From Rhodobacter sp. NTK016B (GTDB lineage Bacteria; Pseudomonadota; Alphaproteobacteria; Rhodobacterales; Rhodobacteraceae): 64,000 bases of DNA. Below the pieces are notes generated by a model. The model did not search any database. It saw only the letters and a list, made by a program, of their open reading frames with translations, and was not told the origin of the DNA. This document shows, piece after piece, positions 57,788 to 64,000 of the stretch. Every line of letters starts with the position of its first letter. Positions within the stretch are counted from its first letter, which is position 1. The stretch spans positions 186,001-250,000 of the forward strand of contig NZ_JAFKOK010000003.1 in the NCBI RefSeq assembly GCF_017303295.1, written 5' to 3'. The translations under genes were made by a program, and so were the position numbers.

Positions 57788-58468
57788 CTAACTGCACCGC
57801 CTCGCGGAGAACAGGTCAGGCTCAGGGTCTTCCATGACATCCGCATAAAGGCTCTCCATCGTTGCCAAGAACTCGCTTTGCCCGCCATAACTGGGGTGGC
57901 GAACCTTTGAGACATTCCCACACGAGACCGCTGAGGAAACAACCTTATAGGCATCGCTTCCAACGGCGATTATACGCTTTGGCCTCAAATACTCTACGAT
58001 GTGAACAAGGATATCGGTCCCAGCCCTTCGCTCCTTTGCGTTGTGGGCGCGATTAGTGAATGGCTTATTCTCTTCGAAAGGATGGAGCGGGAATACGTTC
58101 CACAAAAAAATTGGCACCTGAACCTGAAGCAAGATATTCCAAATCACCGATGCGGTCCGCTCTGCCACAGGCTCTCCATACGTTGGCCGTTCAGGCTCCA
58201 GACCCCAGCGACTCAAATGGCTTGAAAAATGGACATCATCTGTGAGAGCCAGCCCGGTTCTTCTGCCGCCACGATAACCGAGATCGCGTCCGACCCAGAT
58301 AGCATCAAGATCAGCTGCGGCTGCGCGCTCCAACATTGCGTGCAGATAAAACCGCCTTATTTCAGGGGCTTCCTGTGCATCATAGACCGGGCATCGCTCG
58401 AAATATGGGTTGAAAGTGTTATCAAACTCTAGGCGTCCCAAGGCCTTGAGTATATCGCCCGCGCTCAC
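57788..58468 (-). CDS. Uracil-DNA-glycosylase-superfamily protein (defence-operon member)
   Basis: A 226-residue protein that follows the UDG fold. GRDLGYRGGRRTG (60-72) stands where family 4/5-like enzymes have GEAPGxRGxRxTG, and HPSYGG (191-196) is the second catalytic motif. Between them, WNVFPLHPFEENKPFTNRA is the conserved core strand. Glu/Ala/Pro of motif 1 are replaced by Arg/Asp/Leu, so the target base may not be uracil. GTG start with AAAGGGG upstream, two bases after the MazG-like gene; last of four genes. Glycosylases acting on modified phage bases (such as Brig1) are a known precedent. Low GC. Confidence 0.75.
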   Translation of the reverse strand: MSAGDILKALGRLEFDNTFNPYFERCPVYDAQEAPEIRRFYLHAMLERAAAADLDAIWVGRDLGYRGGRRTGLALTDDVHFSSHLSRWGLEPERPTYGEPVAERTASVIWNILLQVQVPIFLWNVFPLHPFEENKPFTNRAHNAKERRAGTDILVHIVEYLRPKRIIAVGSDAYKVVSSAVSCGNVSKVRHPSYGGQSEFLATMESLYADVMEDPEPDLFSARRCS

Positions 58469-58470
58469 TG

Positions 58471-59619
58471 CTACGCCCCTTTCAGTGGCCTGTATTCGAT
58501 CGTCCTCTTATCTCGATTCCCGACCACGATACCACCGTTATTCTTACGCATCTGACGGAAGACCTCATACCCTTGTAGGATAGCAGTTTCCCAAAGATTA
58601 AGCGGACATCGCTCCACCTCGTAGCCGCGAACGAAATTGCTCACAGCCTTTAGTAAATCGAAAGAAACCGAATTTTGACTCTCAAAGAAGTTCAATGCCT
58701 TAGCCTCCGAAAATATGTAGGCAGACACCCCTTCATCGACAACGATCGCACGGCCACTGTCCTGCGCTTCATCAACCCTAGGATCACTCTTTCGCTTATG
58801 TTTGATCAGTGCCCTGAACGTCGGGGACCAGTGCAGGATGGCAGCGTTTGCAAAGTGGAAAACATCATGAAAGCGATAACCATCGGGGTCCGCGATATTG
58901 TCCGTAAGCGGGTCCCCGATAAAAACCCCATTCCATCTCAAGTAGCTTCTTCCATTCGATCTTTGCGTGATCTCTATCTCAAACTGACGCGGAAGTTGCT
59001 CCTCTGCCAGAAAGCCAGCATCGAAGTCGGGAAGGCAATCTGGAGATGGCTTCAGGAAGCGCCCCGTTGATTTGCGAATGTTTGATTCTAAAACTTCAGA
59101 GAAGGACACTCCTGAAGACTGCACGGCCTGAATGTAGGCGCGCACAAATTCAATCATTATCGGCTTGGCAGTTTTTTCATCAGCTTTGACACCAAGAAGA
59201 CGGGCGGAATCCTGTCCCAGCTTTAATAATACGTTATCTAACGGCCCAAGCCCTTTTGCCGTCATCACACGCGCTATAGGTGCGCTTGGATCGGAATTTG
59301 CAGTGATATTTGCGACAAACTGATCGCCCGAGGTCGCCTCCACAAAAAGCTCGGACAAGGTGAGTTTGAGCCTTCGGCAAAGTGCAGCAGCATACCATAG
59401 CGTATCACCCAGCTCTTCCTCAACGTCGCGTCGATACCCAGATTCAAAGGCGCCCTTTTCCCGATGAAGCTTCTTGGACGAGCTCATAACACTGCCGACC
59501 TCACCAAAGAGACCGAGTAATATCGGCGTAATCTCATCGTCTGCAAATCGATCGGTAGGCGTAACGGCTTTCTCATAATCATAAATTGAAATCTGGGGCA
59601 TGCTTGTTGAGTTAATCAT
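58471..59619 (-). CDS. MazG-like nucleotide pyrophosphohydrolase fused to a C-terminal domain of unknown type
   Basis: A 382-residue protein. Residues ~28-90 follow the all-alpha NTP pyrophosphohydrolase pattern: LLGLFGEVGSV, then DVEEELGDTLWYAAAL with the EE-x3-D metal ligands. Residues ~215-355 form a second domain with RFHDVFHFANAA (HDxxH) and DEGVSAYIFSEA, suggesting a second metal centre; I do not recognise its family. MazG proteins hydrolyse (d)NTPs or ppGpp-like nucleotides. Its ATG overlaps the Nmad2-like stop by four bases, with GGAG three bases upstream. Confidence 0.7.
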   Translation of the reverse strand: MINSTSMPQISIYDYEKAVTPTDRFADDEITPILLGLFGEVGSVMSSSKKLHREKGAFESGYRRDVEEELGDTLWYAAALCRRLKLTLSELFVEATSGDQFVANITANSDPSAPIARVMTAKGLGPLDNVLLKLGQDSARLLGVKADEKTAKPIMIEFVRAYIQAVQSSGVSFSEVLESNIRKSTGRFLKPSPDCLPDFDAGFLAEEQLPRQFEIEITQRSNGRSYLRWNGVFIGDPLTDNIADPDGYRFHDVFHFANAAILHWSPTFRALIKHKRKSDPRVDEAQDSGRAIVVDEGVSAYIFSEAKALNFFESQNSVSFDLLKAVSNFVRGYEVERCPLNLWETAILQGYEVFRQMRKNNGGIVVGNRDKRTIEYRPLKGA

Positions 59620-60242
59620 TTTCTCCGTCGCGCCTCTTCTATCATATCATATGGCCGCCCTTGATAGCCCTGAACACCAAGGTCGGCTAACCAAATTTCA
59701 AAACCTTCTATCGTATTTTGATCGGAAACTTTCTTCCGCCCGACACCAGAGTGGACGAGACCCGCATCGCGAAATTCCACAGGAATAAGCGGCCCCTCGG
59801 CCCCGAAGTAGATGAATTCGGAGGAAACTAAAACACGGTTCACTGAGGTGTCGCGGTTAATATGCTTCTGTAAGGGCTTTCCCTCTGCGGTGCTGTGGTA
59901 AGAGTTGAGTTGACTCCAGCTGCCGTTGCCTGGGTCAGGATTGTATATATTATCGCCGCATGCCTTTCGGTAACTGCTGCGCAAATTGGGCTTTTTTCCA
60001 GAAAAGCGTGGGTCATTCCAGTATTCGGAAAATGTTAGTGCTTCCTGCACCCGCATCGCATGAACGAGATGCCCGCCACGTCGCACCCCCTTGCGATTAC
60101 TGCCGGTGCCAACGACCCAGTCTCCAATAGCGGCATGCTGCCTAATGCTAGGCTTGCAGGTTGCCAAAGTGCAAAACCCAAAAAATGGATTGGGTGCAAA
60201 CCCACTATCGAAGCGCACAACGTAGCTGTGGAGGGTCTTCAT
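59616..60242 (-). CDS. Nmad2-like protein (nucleotide modification associated domain 2)
   Basis: A 208-residue protein that opens SYVVRFDSGFAPNPFFGFCT, then LATCKPSIRQHAAIGDWVVGTG, which matches my memory of the Nmad2 family. Iyer and colleagues named the Nmad domains from their genome linkage to DNA-base modification systems; the biochemical activity is unknown. GAGGG precedes the ATG and overlaps the TIR stop codon, nine bases upstream. Second gene of the four-gene operon. Confidence 0.7.
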   Translation of the reverse strand: MKTLHSYVVRFDSGFAPNPFFGFCTLATCKPSIRQHAAIGDWVVGTGSNRKGVRRGGHLVHAMRVQEALTFSEYWNDPRFSGKKPNLRSSYRKACGDNIYNPDPGNGSWSQLNSYHSTAEGKPLQKHINRDTSVNRVLVSSEFIYFGAEGPLIPVEFRDAGLVHSGVGRKKVSDQNTIEGFEIWLADLGVQGYQGRPYDMIEEARRRK

Positions 60243-60251
60243 TCTATACCC

Positions 60252-60728
60252 TCATGCGCACGGATGGCGGCGAATAGCCCGTGGCGGGAGAGGCTGACCT
60301 TTCGGGTCCTCAAAGCGCTCATATTCACCATTAATCGCATCGATGATCCTATCAGCATTCCAGCCTACGATCGCGTCGCCGTACTCATCAAGCGCTTCCG
60401 GAACTTCACAACCGTTCGATCCTTGCTCCCAAACACCGACGATGGTCTTGCCTTTTTCACGAGCCCGCTCGATTTCCCAGTTCACCCACTCACTGTTTCT
60501 TGTTTCCGGAGTGATATAAACGATAAGTGTACTAGCCCAGTCAATTCTGGGCGCAAGGATCTGAGACTTAATATAGTCTGGAGATTTTGCGTTGTTGGGT
60601 TTTTCTGAATTTATGGAACCGTCCCTGACATCCATCCCCTTACTTTTTAGAAGATTCTTCAGATCGGCTAATCCTGCATCGTCTTCGTGGATGTGGCTAA
60701 TAAAAACATTTTTGCTGCCCTTGCTCAT
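60252..60728 (-). CDS. TIR-like domain protein (ThsB/DUF1863 type)
   Basis: A 158-residue protein that is almost entirely a TIR-like domain: NVFISHIHEDDAGLADLK (strand A/BB loop), then RIDWASTLIVYITPETRNSEWVNWEIERARE, where the glutamate in WEIE sits at the catalytic position of TIR NADases. The Thoeris ThsB proteins have the same compact build. I start it at MSKGSKN, 60728, with AGAGGAT upstream. First gene of the minus-strand operon; it diverges from a second TIR gene. Confidence 0.8.
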   Translation of the reverse strand: MSKGSKNVFISHIHEDDAGLADLKNLLKSKGMDVRDGSINSEKPNNAKSPDYIKSQILAPRIDWASTLIVYITPETRNSEWVNWEIERAREKGKTIVGVWEQGSNGCEVPEALDEYGDAIVGWNADRIIDAINGEYERFEDPKGQPLPPRAIRRHPCA

Positions 60729-60834
60729 TGATGCTATCCTCTGCTTCACACTATTGCTGGCGTCAGCGCAGTCACTCCCACGACATCATGTGTCCGGCGC
60801 TCACTCAGATCAAGTCCGATAGTCAAGGAAATCG
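60729..60834. promoter_or_regulatory. Shared divergent control region of the two TIR operons
   Basis: 106 bp separate the starts of two oppositely transcribed TIR genes. I find no convincing -10/-35 pair or palindrome, but both operons must start here, so joint control is likely. Confidence 0.5.
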
Positions 60835-62088
60835 ATGCTACCGCCAATCCTCGAAATTTTCATCGTTTGGCATCCGCAGGATACGTCGGGTCTCCAGACG
60901 GCTGATGCGATATTCAAACACTTCATGCATGGCCCGACATTCTCAGGTGTCATTGGGGGAGGGATTCAGGTCTCCTTTCGCAGCACGCCGTGGGGTGGCG
61001 CCGGAACCGCACCAAGGCCGATCTACAACAGCGCTCATCCTGCTCCGAACGGCATCCGACCGGCCAGGTTCACTGTGATCGTTCCTCTACTTGGCACAGA
61101 ACTCGCCGCTAGCGTCGAGGACGGAACGTCGAGTTGGTCCCGATACATCGCCGCGCTTCAAGAGGATCAGGCGCGAGCACCAGATGAAATCGGAATCTAC
61201 CCCTTTTTGCTGTCAGAGGGTGCCACGAATGGTACGAAGTTAGGCGGTATTTTTGGGCGCTATCAGTTCATCGCTGCCGGGAAGCCTGAGCAGCTTGGTG
61301 AAAGCGAAGTGAGCATGCTGTGCCGCGATCTAACGCAAGGGATAGCTCAGCTGATCTCGCCGGATGAGATGGATCGATTGACAACCTTCATTAGCCACAC
61401 CAAGCGTCATAGCAGCTCTGAAGGTGAAGATGTTGACGCATTGGTCGATTTGGTGCGTGATGTCATTGGGAATACGCGGCTGCGCGAGTATTTCGATGCC
61501 AGTGACCTTCAACCAGGCTCTGACTGGGATGCCGAGCTCAGAGGGAATGCTAGTCAGAGCGCGATGCTGGCCATTCGTACCGATCTCTACGCTAGCCGCT
61601 CTTGGTGTCAGCGCGAAATTGCCTTGGCGAAAACCAATGGCATGCCGGTGATAATGATGGACGCGATCGGCTTTGGTGAGGAACGCGGCTCCTTCCTGAT
61701 GGATCATGTCCCACGAGTGGCGGTTCGAAAAGTCGATGGCCGCTGGCAGAAGAAGGATGTCTATCGTGCCCTCAACCTGCTCGTAGATGAGTGCCTTAAG
61801 AGGGCGCTCTGGCTACACCAAAAAGATCTATCCGGCGAGCGCCCGGAGCTGGATATAGCCTGGTGGGCACCTCATGCGCCCGAGCCGCTAACCTTACTCC
61901 ATTGGATCGGCTCTCAGCTCACGTCTGGAAACCCAAGGGAGGCAGAGGGCGCCTTGCGCATACTGCATCCTGATCCGCCCCTCGGAGAAGCTGAGCGGGA
62001 GGTACTGCAAGATTATGCAAAGAGCACACAGCTGGGCCGTGATATCGACATAATGACCCCACGCCAGCTTGCGACCAGAGGAGGCTAA
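60835..62088 (+). CDS. TIR-domain protein, probable defence effector or sensor
   Basis: A 417-residue protein. The TIR domain spans ~183-300: LTTFISHTKRHSSSEG, DLQPGSDWDAELRGNASQS, and RTDLYASRSWCQREIALAK with the catalytic glutamate after WCQR. The N-terminal ~150 residues (EIFIVWHPQDTSG, FTVIVPLLGTELAAS, WSRYIAAL) also look TIR-like but lack a clear catalytic Glu. The C-terminal ~90 residues are helical. AAGGA precedes ATG 60835. The SLOG gene follows one base after its stop. Confidence 0.8.
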   Translation: MLPPILEIFIVWHPQDTSGLQTADAIFKHFMHGPTFSGVIGGGIQVSFRSTPWGGAGTAPRPIYNSAHPAPNGIRPARFTVIVPLLGTELAASVEDGTSSWSRYIAALQEDQARAPDEIGIYPFLLSEGATNGTKLGGIFGRYQFIAAGKPEQLGESEVSMLCRDLTQGIAQLISPDEMDRLTTFISHTKRHSSSEGEDVDALVDLVRDVIGNTRLREYFDASDLQPGSDWDAELRGNASQSAMLAIRTDLYASRSWCQREIALAKTNGMPVIMMDAIGFGEERGSFLMDHVPRVAVRKVDGRWQKKDVYRALNLLVDECLKRALWLHQKDLSGERPELDIAWWAPHAPEPLTLLHWIGSQLTSGNPREAEGALRILHPDPPLGEAEREVLQDYAKSTQLGRDIDIMTPRQLATRGG

Positions 62089-62089
62089 A

Positions 62090-62941
62090 GTGGCCGACGA
62101 CAAGCAAAGGGCTGAACTGCTGCCTGCCGATGCCTTGAAAGGCAAGCGCTTAGGAATTTCTGTCTCGAACAGTCCGGACCTCGATCGGCTGGGCCTCACT
62201 GAGACCCACTTCCGCATGACCTTGGGGGAACTCGTGCGTTCCGTAGTCATCGCGGGCGGCGACCTCTATTACGGTGGCCACTTGCAGCCCGAAGGTATCA
62301 CGACTTTTCTCATCGAAGAACTTCATCGCTATGGTCGCCGTGACAGGCCTCTGAAAGTTTGCTTGGCTTGGAGCATTCATCGATCTATGAGCAAGGAACA
62401 GATCGCCGAACAGAAAGACTTCCTTGGCCTCTTTGGTGAGATCCACTTCTTGGACAACGATGGGGCTCGCCTGGAGGGCCCTCTGAATGAGCAGCCAGTA
62501 AGCGAGTTCCCTGCCGAGGAAAGGGCCAAGGCACTCAGCGGCTTGCGCAATTACATGGCAAAAAACACCGACGCCCGCATTGTGATTGGTGGAAAACGCG
62601 ATGGTTTTGAAGGCGCTATGCCTGGCATCGTAGAAGAAGTCTTGCTCTCACTTGAAAGTAAACAGCCTGTTTTCTTGGCGGGTGGGTTCGGCGGCGCTAC
62701 GGTGGACATTATCCGCGTTCTCCGTCCTGGAAGTGCAGAATGGTTTCCTTTGAGCCCAGAGCCAAAAAATGATTCCCGCTTACTGGATAGTCTTGAACGG
62801 GTTGCAGAAGCTGCCACGCGGATGGAATGGGATGTTTTGGAGAATGGCCTGAGTGAAGAAGAGAATAACCTCCTCGCAGCCTCATATCGGCCAAGCGAAA
62901 TCGCAGCTCTCGTAGGGCGCGGACTCGGGAAAGTTCTATAA
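62090..62941 (+). CDS. SLOG-superfamily protein paired with TIR
   Basis: A 283-residue protein with a Rossmann-like SLOG fold: AGGDLYYGGHLQPEGIT, ARIVIGGKRDGFEGAMPGIVEE, and FLAGGFGGATVDI. SLOG domains bind or process nucleotides; in Thoeris (ThsA) a SLOG domain senses the cyclic ADP-ribose-type signal made by a TIR enzyme. This protein has no fused effector, so it could be a sensor or a nucleotide-processing partner. I chose GTG 62090 with GAGGAGG upstream; seven extra in-frame codons overlap the tir gene. Confidence 0.75.
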   Translation: MADDKQRAELLPADALKGKRLGISVSNSPDLDRLGLTETHFRMTLGELVRSVVIAGGDLYYGGHLQPEGITTFLIEELHRYGRRDRPLKVCLAWSIHRSMSKEQIAEQKDFLGLFGEIHFLDNDGARLEGPLNEQPVSEFPAEERAKALSGLRNYMAKNTDARIVIGGKRDGFEGAMPGIVEEVLLSLESKQPVFLAGGFGGATVDIIRVLRPGSAEWFPLSPEPKNDSRLLDSLERVAEAATRMEWDVLENGLSEEENNLLAASYRPSEIAALVGRGLGKVL

Positions 62942-63014: not shown

Positions 63015-63896
63015 GGCTCAGGACCCATTTTTTTGGTTGGACGCTCGTGATTCATCGCTCGAAAACGAGTGGTGACCAGGTCAGATCTTTTCTGGTTGAG
63101 CGATGCGCAGATGGCGCGTCTCGAGCCTTACTTTCCGAAGTCGCACGGCAAGCCCCGGATCGATGACCGGCGGGTTCTGAGTGGCATTATCTTCATAAAT
63201 CGCAACGGCTTGCGTTGCCACAACGCCCCAAGGGAGTATGGCCCCCACAAGACACTCTACAACCGCTGGAAACGATGGAGCGATAAAGGCGTCTTCGCCC
63301 GGATCATGGCGGGGCTGGCCGCTGAGCACGTCGAGGAGACGACTGTGATGATCCCCTCTCGGGACATCATTTCGTGATGCACTGCCGGGCAGTGGACGCC
63401 ACCCATCTGAAGGCCCATCGCACGGCGTCCAGCCTGGGCGTTAATAAGGGGGGCGTGGACGCCTGATTGGCCGACCCAAGGGCGGCATGAATACTAAGCT
63501 GCACGCCATCTGCGACAGCCGCGTTCGGCCCATCGACCTGTTCCTGACAGCCGGTCCCGTCAGCGACTATATCGGGGCGCGTGCGCTCGTCAGCCGGCTG
63601 CCCAACGTGAAGTGGCTTCTCGGAGATCGCGGCTACAATGCCGACTGGTTCAGAGAAGCCTTGCAGGACAAGAAGATACGTCCTTACATCCCGGGCCGGA
63701 AGAAACGGAAGACGCCCATCCGGCATGACCAGCGGCGGTACAAGCGCCGTAGTCGCATCGAGATCATGTTCGCCAGGCTCAAGGACTAGTGGCGTGTTGT
63801 GACACGCTACGACCGATGCCCGAAGACCTTCTTCTTGGCGATCGCACTCGCCGCAACCGTTATTTTCTGGTTGTGAGTGGGAACAAGTCCTGAGCC
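63015..63896 (+). mobile_element. Decayed IS5-family insertion sequence
   Basis: An ~880-bp element bounded by GGCTCAGGAC at 63015-63024 and its reverse complement at 63887-63896. It contains a broken IS5-family (IS427-like) transposase. I could not identify a target duplication. Boundaries rest on these short inverted repeats and the transposase extent. Confidence 0.65.
63069..63876 (+). pseudogene. IS5-family transposase, inactivated
   Basis: Reading frames together resemble an IS5-family DDE transposase: FWLSDAQMARLEPYFPKSHG ... EYGPHKTLYNRWKRWS, then DATHLKAHRTASS, GGMNTKLHAICD, LLGDRGYNADWFREAL and RRYKRRSRIEIMFARLKD. It is broken at least three times: a 41-base insertion before DATHLK (about 63351-63391), a one-base slip in the G-run at ~63445, and a TAG (63787-63789) before the final WRVVTRYDRCPK segment. 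Confidence 0.85.
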
Positions 63897-64000
63897 TTGT
63901 TTCGACAACTTCACCGTGCAAGCCATTGCGCAAGAGCGCTTGCCGTGTTTTTGCGTCGATCCCATACCATCCATTCTTCTTTCTCTTTTCCTCGGAATTT
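63897..64000. other. Sequence after the IS5 remnant
   Basis: 104 bp with lower GC and no gene or signal that I can support. Confidence 0.5.

Follow-up and report, generated by a model that had tools for sequence, protein, structure and literature searches.

The four minus-strand genes at positions 57,788 to 60,728 of the 64,000-nucleotide stretch of Rhodobacter sp. NTK016B (the whole stretch is referred to as the window hereafter) encode a TIR protein (TIR1), an Nmad2 protein, a MazG/MazG_C protein and a UDG-like protein, and a divergent pair of genes for a second TIR protein (TIR2) and a SLOG protein lies beside them. The functional unit is probably larger than the four genes, the TIR2–SLOG pair going together with the operon. 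Our reading, to which we give a probability of about 0.5, is that the six genes form an anti-phage alarm of the Thoeris type that includes a cassette for base surveillance. Its parts differ in strength: SLOG-coupled TIR immune signalling is likely, and a uracil-type base or nucleotide as the trigger has somewhat less than an even chance. The features concerned are the following.

57788–58468, minus strand: operon gene 4, candidate UDG-superfamily protein of 226 aa with a GTG start (Pfam UDG, PF03167)
58471–59619, minus strand: operon gene 3, MazG/MazG_C protein of 382 aa (MazG_C, PF18722)
59616–60242, minus strand: operon gene 2, Nmad2 of 208 aa (PF18753), probable PUA-like base reader
60252–60728, minus strand: operon gene 1, TIR1, ThsB-type TIR of 158 aa, probable messenger synthase
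60729–60834: divergent intergenic region between TIR1 and TIR2, 106 bp
60835–62088, plus strand: TIR2 of 417 aa (TIR_2, PF13676, E = 2.1e-6), probable NADase effector
62069–62941, plus strand: SLOG LD_cluster2 protein of 290 aa (PF18163, E = 5.4e-57), probable messenger receptor

Layout and protein families of the six genes

The sequence-only reading had described the four minus-strand genes as one transcription unit, and the open reading frames (ORFs) agree with it in both coordinates and spacing: a 9-bp gap separates TIR1 and Nmad2, a 4-bp overlap joins Nmad2 and MazG_C, and a 2-bp gap separates MazG_C and UDG, a packing that supports a single transcription unit. An upstream GTG could lengthen the TIR1 ORF to 60749. 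The operon stands, though it is probably not the complete unit; the TIR2–SLOG pair at 60835–62941, in which the 5′ end of the SLOG gene overlaps the 3′ end of the TIR2 gene, had been left out. This pair occupies the identical divergent site in 11 close relatives (L028–L033 and L035–L039; the L numbers denote loci), and its SLOG gene is the only LD_cluster2 match found in its own genome. In the region between TIR1 and TIR2, short blocks are partly conserved in nine relatives among L028–L038 and more weakly in the window; no sigma-70 consensus match was found in these 106 bp, and scanning for promoters and terminators yielded no more here than in shuffled sequences. The low guanine-plus-cytosine (GC) content and the island setting were also borne out, the GC fraction being 0.50–0.54 at 57–61 kb as against 0.61–0.71 before 57 kb (2-kb steps), and the defence role proposed for the genes is likely.

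The four families named earlier were confirmed by searches with hidden Markov models (HMMs), the UDG match being marginal and the MazG match below threshold. TIR1 belongs to ThsB_TIR (PF08937, E = 4.3e-23) and matches the PADLOC ThsB model PDLC00418 nearly end to end (residues 5–157, E = 1.5e-67); its W81 and E85 show at least 90% identity across the 64 four-gene homologs. TIR1 had been taken as the depleter of nicotinamide adenine dinucleotide (NAD+). Because it is of the ThsB type, and ThsB makes the messenger in Thoeris, it is more likely a signal maker than a NAD-depleting killer. The killer and the receptor are probably the divergent TIR2 and SLOG proteins; W257 and E261 of TIR2 show at least 90% identity in 48 homologs.

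As for the cassette, Nmad2 matches PF18753 over residues 1–203 of 208 (E = 1.4e-74), and its structure model is confident (predicted local distance difference test, pLDDT, 92.7; predicted template modelling score, pTM, 0.89; 39-row alignment). Among the 50 Foldseek matches listed for this model, 35 are titled ASCH/TRIP4, YTH/Mmi1 or THYN1, six more are of a kind that we take to be EVE-type, and the remaining ones include one McrB N-domain and five ATP sulfurylases. Judged by the model, Nmad2 is probably a PUA-like domain, and its fold matches favour a base- or nucleic-acid-binding role. The MazG_C protein matches PF18722 (E = 1.8e-83), and E40, E69, D72, H251, D252, H255, D283, D287, R290 and E296 are invariant in 26 sequences. 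In the UDG-like protein, GRDLGYRGGRRTG with D62 and the H191-P-S motif show at least 90% identity in the 64 four-gene homologs; we take them to be the motif-I-like and motif-II-like elements of UDG, and together with the domain match they place the protein, marginally, in the UDG superfamily. A scan of the six proteins with NCBIfam gave no match above the cut-off.

From these parts the following course of events can be proposed. The substrates of the MazG_C and UDG-like proteins would be phage nucleotides or bases of the uracil family (deoxyuridine, 5-hydroxymethyldeoxyuridine, 5-hmdU, or derivatives), a 5-hmdU DNA kinase apparently replacing UDG in related loci. Nmad2 would read the base or a processing product and license TIR1, whose gene lies directly upstream. 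As its ThsB family suggests, TIR1 would convert NAD+ to an ADP-ribose-type messenger. The SLOG protein, judged by the ThsA family and by gene replacement, would bind this messenger and switch on TIR2, which would then destroy NAD+ and abort the infection. In relatives, a SIR2-STALD protein matching ThsA would occupy the effector seat, and a patatin-SLOG protein is present in others.

If an operon binds a ThsB-type TIR to a base reader, a nucleotide pyrophosphohydrolase and a glycosylase, the modification of phage DNA, usually regarded as protecting it from restriction, would act as an alarm trigger in its own right. Little is settled about the way in which TIR immune proteins detect infection; capsid sensing is one answer, described in PMC11312562. 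The variety of SLOG partners (SIR2, patatin and TIR2) around one recurring sensor cassette would also offer a natural set of parts for studying how messengers and receptors are matched.

Recurrence of the operon and of its SLOG partners

A tblastn search with Nmad2 gave 17 plasmid records (H16 and H17 were left out of the follow-up) and no phage record. When genomes were scanned with an Nmad2 alignment of 10 rows, 543 places were obtained, the best 80 of which are the loci L028–L107. After removal of nine loci (L001–L008, own-genome or short, and L019, a duplicate of L055), 98 of L001–L107 remained, and 94 of them carry Nmad2 (at least 60 bits). This set was mostly picked by similarity to the Nmad2 of the window and includes near-copies; the families were mapped by HMMs built from the loci themselves. 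Recurrence of the gene order, which the sequence-only reading had put forward as a check, was found: the full order TIR1–Nmad2–MazG_C–UDG is present in 64 of the 94 loci. MazG_C follows Nmad2 on the same strand within 300 bp in 76, and TIR1 precedes Nmad2 within 300 bp in 91, a figure that derives mostly from the similarity-picked loci.

For the second sample, 385 genomes were taken in even spread across the class to which the window belongs; some of them overlap the similarity set, and the statistics are uncorrected for phylogeny. Nmad2 and MazG_C were each found in 13 of the 385 genomes, and both in nine. Without the window's own genome, eight genomes are shared among 12 and 12, where 0.375 are expected (hypergeometric P = 2e-11), and the two genes stand side by side in seven of these eight, lying on different contigs in G561. 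G367 has two partial Nmad2 places, of which one was left out. Since the order is conserved (64/94) and the co-occurrence at the genome level reaches this P value, the clustering of the four genes is not due to chance. Tn7-like genes and several TIRs in the low-GC island would suit a gathering of unrelated genes by chance within a defence island; for the four genes, such a gathering is contradicted by the same two results, and we give it almost no credence.

SLOG proteins were found near 52 of the 64 four-gene loci, and near 44 of the 50 that have flanks of at least 5 kb on both sides; in all but one of the 52 positive loci (51), the distance from the operon edge to the nearest one is less than or equal to 1 kb. 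They are of several types: LD_cluster3 alone in 23 loci, LD_cluster2 alone in 15, LD_cluster3 with patatin-SLOG in seven, SIR2-STALD alone in six, and all of LD_cluster3, patatin-SLOG and SIR2-STALD in one. These identities come from Pfam and PADLOC matches of cluster representatives (LD_cluster3, PF18180, 1.9e-63; LD_cluster2, PF18163, 1.5e-72; patatin-SLOG fusion, LD_cluster2, 2.4e-10), the other members being assigned by similarity, and two more LD_cluster3 members were identified by scan. A first iterated SLOG model had drifted into patatin and SIR2 proteins and was dropped in favour of per-cluster HMMs. Before three patatins without a SLOG half (L014, L039 and L062) were removed, the counts had stood at 53 of 64 and 45 of 50. 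The SIR2-STALD protein lies near the operon in seven loci (L010, L043, L046, L058, L063, L065, where it is 2.2 kb away, and L080), and that of L043, the one tested, matches PADLOC ThsA at 5e-155.

In a tree built by a quick method from the four proteins joined together (65 rows, of which 62 differ), the partner arrangement needs 19 changes, as compared with a minimum of 15 for its 16 arrangement labels and a shuffled mean of 37.7. Changes to "none" enter into the count of 19, as do two artefact labels (a patatin without SLOG in L062 and a split LD_cluster3 gene in L071); about 13 distinct SLOG partner types or orientations are left once the artefact labels are set aside. These changes indicate that the pairing of operon and SLOG was remade repeatedly. 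The window falls into a 12-row group (support 99) whose identical divergent TIR2–LD_cluster2 arrangement needs a single change; the rows closest to the window belong to Roseobacteraceae, Parvularculaceae, Stappiaceae and Maricaulaceae. Thus, the six genes have been kept as a block in this group, and elsewhere the operon has joined SLOG partners repeatedly.

The even sample and the controls bear on the same pairing. LD_cluster3 was found in one and LD_cluster2 in six of the 385 genomes; four of these seven genomes carry Nmad2, and the SLOG gene lies beside the operon in all four. Without the own genome, three of the six SLOG genomes carry Nmad2, as against 0.19 expected (P = 4e-4). In MazG_C control loci without TIR1–Nmad2 (plasmid L017, L022, L026, L027 and L160–L169; genomic L153–L159, 7.5 to 19.9 kb), SLOG, TIR1 and TIR2 were found in none of the 14 plasmid and none of the seven genomic loci; the annotations of the plasmid controls, which are incomplete, contain no TIR protein. 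Among the 11 plasmid MazG_C records with Nmad2, six have SLOG (L009, L010, L011, L013, L020 and L019/L055) and five do not (L012, L014, L018, L021 and L023), and all four plasmid records with the four genes contiguous have it. These figures cover 25 of the 34 MazG_C plasmid records (H25, H26, H28, H29, H32, H42, H43, H47 and H51 were left out).

The following observations weigh against our reading of the six genes. At 12 of the 64 four-gene loci no SLOG was found in the stretch covered, and six of these have full flanks (L049, L062, L064, L069, L081 and L100). A STALD search in the genomes of 11 loci, which include four of these six (L064 and L062 were left out), gave one match, that of L049. 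In the even sample, SLOG is present at only three of the six TIR1–Nmad2–MazG_C loci and TIR1 at only six of the 12 non-own Nmad2 loci; five Nmad2 loci (L133–L137, two of them partial matches) have no other mapped family, and in L132 MazG_C and the kinase lie beside Nmad2 without TIR1. A distant SLOG in the controls could escape, because the SLOG HMMs were built from the positive loci, and since the island is rich in TIRs, part of the SLOG adjacency could be defence-island clustering. The TIR2 of the window matches none of the PADLOC ThsB models, and it may be the messenger maker instead of the killer.

Further points of this kind concern the cassette proteins. The UDG match (E = 1.2e-5) has 25.8 bits against a cut-off of 24.3, and the MazG match (PF03819) of the MazG_C protein has 18.8 bits against a cut-off of 22; in the usual MazG metal-site motif, EExxE...ExxD, the second Glu is Ser here (position 43). 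The Nmad2 fold matches are individually weak (best E = 0.039, probability 0.63), none of those listed reaching E = 0.001. The MazG_C fold matches are weaker still: its model (pLDDT 90.5) matches the dimeric dUTPase and iMazG at probabilities of 0.91–0.95, but at E values of about 1, unrelated helical proteins and bundles outrank them by E-value, and none is at or below 0.001. Sequence searches of solved structures gave no PDB match at E ≤ 1 for UDG and MazG_C, two chance-level matches for Nmad2, and distant TIRs for TIR1. As the phage collection contains no relative of Nmad2 or UDG, a phage counterpart gives no hint of the substrate; five of its records match the MazG_C protein, but only in the N-terminal MazG part. 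Finally, what is shown comprises the genes and their families, the conservation of catalytic-type residues, and the recurrent association of the operon with SLOG proteins; the steps of the mechanism are what we infer from them.

It could also be supposed that the four genes are a self-contained system, in which TIR1 depletes NAD+ after Nmad2, UDG and MazG_C have sensed modified phage DNA, and that TIR2–SLOG is a separate neighbour. The four genes do form one unit in 64 of the 94 loci, the loci where SLOG was not seen fit this supposition, and the islands contain several TIRs; however, TIR1 is of the ThsB type, small and without a fused effector, and the nearness of SLOG in the positive loci, in about 13 types or orientations, together with its absence from the 21 control MazG_C loci, speaks against it. 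We regard the self-contained system as rather unlikely.

The SLOG-less loci have other neighbours. A small protein, membrane-spanning by eye, is encoded directly before TIR1 in L048 (6994–7437), L081 (6781–7467), L100 (6796–7470) and L096 (7035–7478); the L048 protein matches 8xMP (PF24838, 2.5e-12), and the other three gave nothing above the cut-off. These proteins are possibly alternative membrane effectors. In L062, L064 and L069, a large protein lies beside TIR1, which is a TIR protein in L062 and patatin-like, below threshold, in L069. No firm effector was identified among the TIR1 neighbours of the SLOG-less loci.

Base-type partner genes and the trigger

Of the 94 Nmad2 loci, 72 have UDG and 12 the 5-hmdU kinase (HMUDK), and the two never occur together. 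Each of the 14 MazG_C loci that the class sample contains besides the own one has one of the two and never both (UDG in nine, HMUDK in five), and so has each of the 14 plasmid control MazG_C loci (UDG in eight, HMUDK in six). TIR1–Nmad2 was also found with other partners: in L016 (5507–10910), the genes after it encode a thymidylate synthase, an O-methyltransferase and a 5-hmdU kinase, and in L015 (5499–10141), a kinase and a radical SAM protein. The common thread of the partner genes is chemistry on deoxyuridine-type bases, and it is for this reason that we propose a uracil-type trigger. The idea of base sensing put forward by the sequence-only reading thus gains indirect support, from the probable PUA-like nature of Nmad2 and from the fact that UDG and the 5-hmdU kinase never stand together beside MazG_C, and is still conjectural.

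L015 and L016 would equally suit a system for host DNA hypermodification, or one resembling restriction-modification, with TIR1–Nmad2 as the discriminating arm. But none of the six window genes is base-making by family, UDG-type enzymes remove bases and do not make them, and a search of the own genome gave no 5-hmdU kinase match, though the controls in that search were silent too. We consider this very unlikely.

Another view is that these are ordinary Thoeris-type loci, in which MazG_C, UDG and Nmad2 only protect the host (as a cleaner of modified deoxynucleoside triphosphates, an antidote or a regulator) and the TIRs sense phage proteins, for example, capsids. Staphylococcal Thoeris ThsB1 and ThsB2 are described as sensing the major capsid protein (PMC11312562), extra TIRs lie nearby, and the SIR2-STALD proteins near the operon in seven loci, with the tested one matching ThsA, are in line with such loci. 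Against this view, Nmad2 lies directly after TIR1 in 91 of the 94 mostly similarity-picked loci (six of 12 in the even sample), and the TIR1–Nmad2 pair is retained where its base-modifying partners are different ones (5-hmdU kinase, thymidylate synthase and radical SAM). Because of this direct adjacency and persistence, these Nmad2 proteins look tied to TIR1, and mere host protection seems to us improbable.

MazG_C also recurs outside the TIR1–Nmad2 setting. In the plasmid loci L160–L169, L017, L026 and L027, a cassette of MazG_C and UDG or the 5-hmdU kinase is accompanied by varying sets of helix-turn-helix (HTH) protein, ImmA/IrrE-type protease, C1 peptidase, acyl carrier protein (ACP)/holo-ACP synthase, thymidylate synthase and dCTP deaminase, and it is possibly a separate undescribed defence system. 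Extending our reading of the six genes, one may tentatively regard MazG_C with UDG or the 5-hmdU kinase as a plug-in innate sensor for thymine-replacing bases that is wired to differing alarm outputs, although we doubt it more than we believe it. The outputs would then be, with the same doubt, TIR1–Nmad2 with SLOG effectors here and HTH–ImmA–peptidase cassettes on other plasmids. In the boldest form of the proposal, TIR1 would move the UDG-released base onto ADP-ribose by base exchange, and a piece of the phage genome would be the alarm that SLOG reads; this we hold to be highly improbable. Beside MazG_C–UDG, a metallophosphoesterase with a weak C-terminal thymidylate-synthase-like match, below the cut-off, was observed in L012 (6609–8798, E = 0.063) and L017 (2685–4868, E = 0.0012).

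Relation to known systems and the surrounding island

As outlined in PMC11204291 and PMC11312562, the ThsB TIRs of Thoeris sense infection and make nucleotide signals, and the ThsA effectors bind them, through SLOG in the SIR2-SLOG ThsA. The window resembles Thoeris in its ThsB-type TIR1 and in the adjacent SLOG protein with a TIR partner, and seven relative loci do so in the SIR2-STALD protein of their neighbourhood, that of L043 matching PADLOC ThsA. It differs in that Nmad2, MazG_C and UDG lie inside the TIR operon and in that the effector's part presumably falls to TIR2 and LD_cluster2 as a separate pair, not to a SIR2-SLOG fusion. None of the six proteins matches a PADLOC ThsA model, and a STALD search of the own genome gave no match, though the controls in that search were silent too. 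As ThsA was not found in the locus, the window system is not Thoeris proper; a TIR-made messenger may activate a SLOG-bearing effector there. According to the account of TM-macro Thoeris in PMC11204291, ThsB output and effector type vary between Thoeris systems, and ThsB can perform base exchange. A macro domain was not found in the six proteins of the unit and ten further island proteins, which is a difference from that system.

The claim of an undescribed defence system holds in part. PADLOC and literature searches found no named system with this gene set, but "undescribed" is too strong, since DefensePredictor (PMC13092281; 2026) gives MazG, MazG-C and NMAD, among others, as predicted defence domains, its Fig. 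6F legend listing UDG. The same source names a 5-hmdU kinase and a thymidylate synthase domain among the components of anti-phage systems validated in E. coli, lists NMAD in its Fig. 3C legend, and credits several domains to an earlier bioinformatic prediction (Burroughs 2015). The likeness to our genes is that the same domain families are predicted or shown in defence; the difference is that "TIR" and "Thoeris" each occur zero times in its main text, and that no SLOG link or mechanism for those domains was found in it. The EVE/DCD PUA-like modified-base readers (PMC7641849) are like Nmad2 in the probable fold and the proposed reader role, but Nmad2 has a Pfam family of its own, each of the matches linking the folds is weak (best E = 0.039 among those listed), and "Nmad" is absent from the text of that paper. 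The literature searches found no paper that brings MazG and Nmad2 together, and none that combines Thoeris, MazG, a glycosylase and TIR. The domains were thus already suspected of defence, and what is new here, as far as the searches show, is the link of the operon to SLOG receptors and Thoeris logic. A glycosylase as such in defence has a reported parallel: in Brig1-type defence, the DNA glycosylase itself reportedly acts against phages with modified DNA, the difference being that here a UDG-superfamily protein is encoded within a TIR operon.

The low-GC island is about 19 kb long, from 57200 to the window end at 64000 and on to about 76200, and GC is back to about 0.67 near 77000. Past the window end, Tn7-like genes lie at 66731–72445 (TnsA-like, below threshold, Mu-type transposase, TniB and TniQ), and the same island also encodes a HEPN_LA2681 protein and a GGACT protein. 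Its genes are possible Tn7-like defence cargo. Two further TIR genes were found.

63911–64462, minus strand, across the window end: TIR gene (TIR_2, 5.7e-12 on the part scanned)
64503–65132, minus strand, past the window end: TIR gene (ThsB_TIR, 1.9e-15)

Just after the SLOG gene, two short plus-strand ORFs at 63069–63789 resemble, by eye, the halves of an IS5-type transposase.

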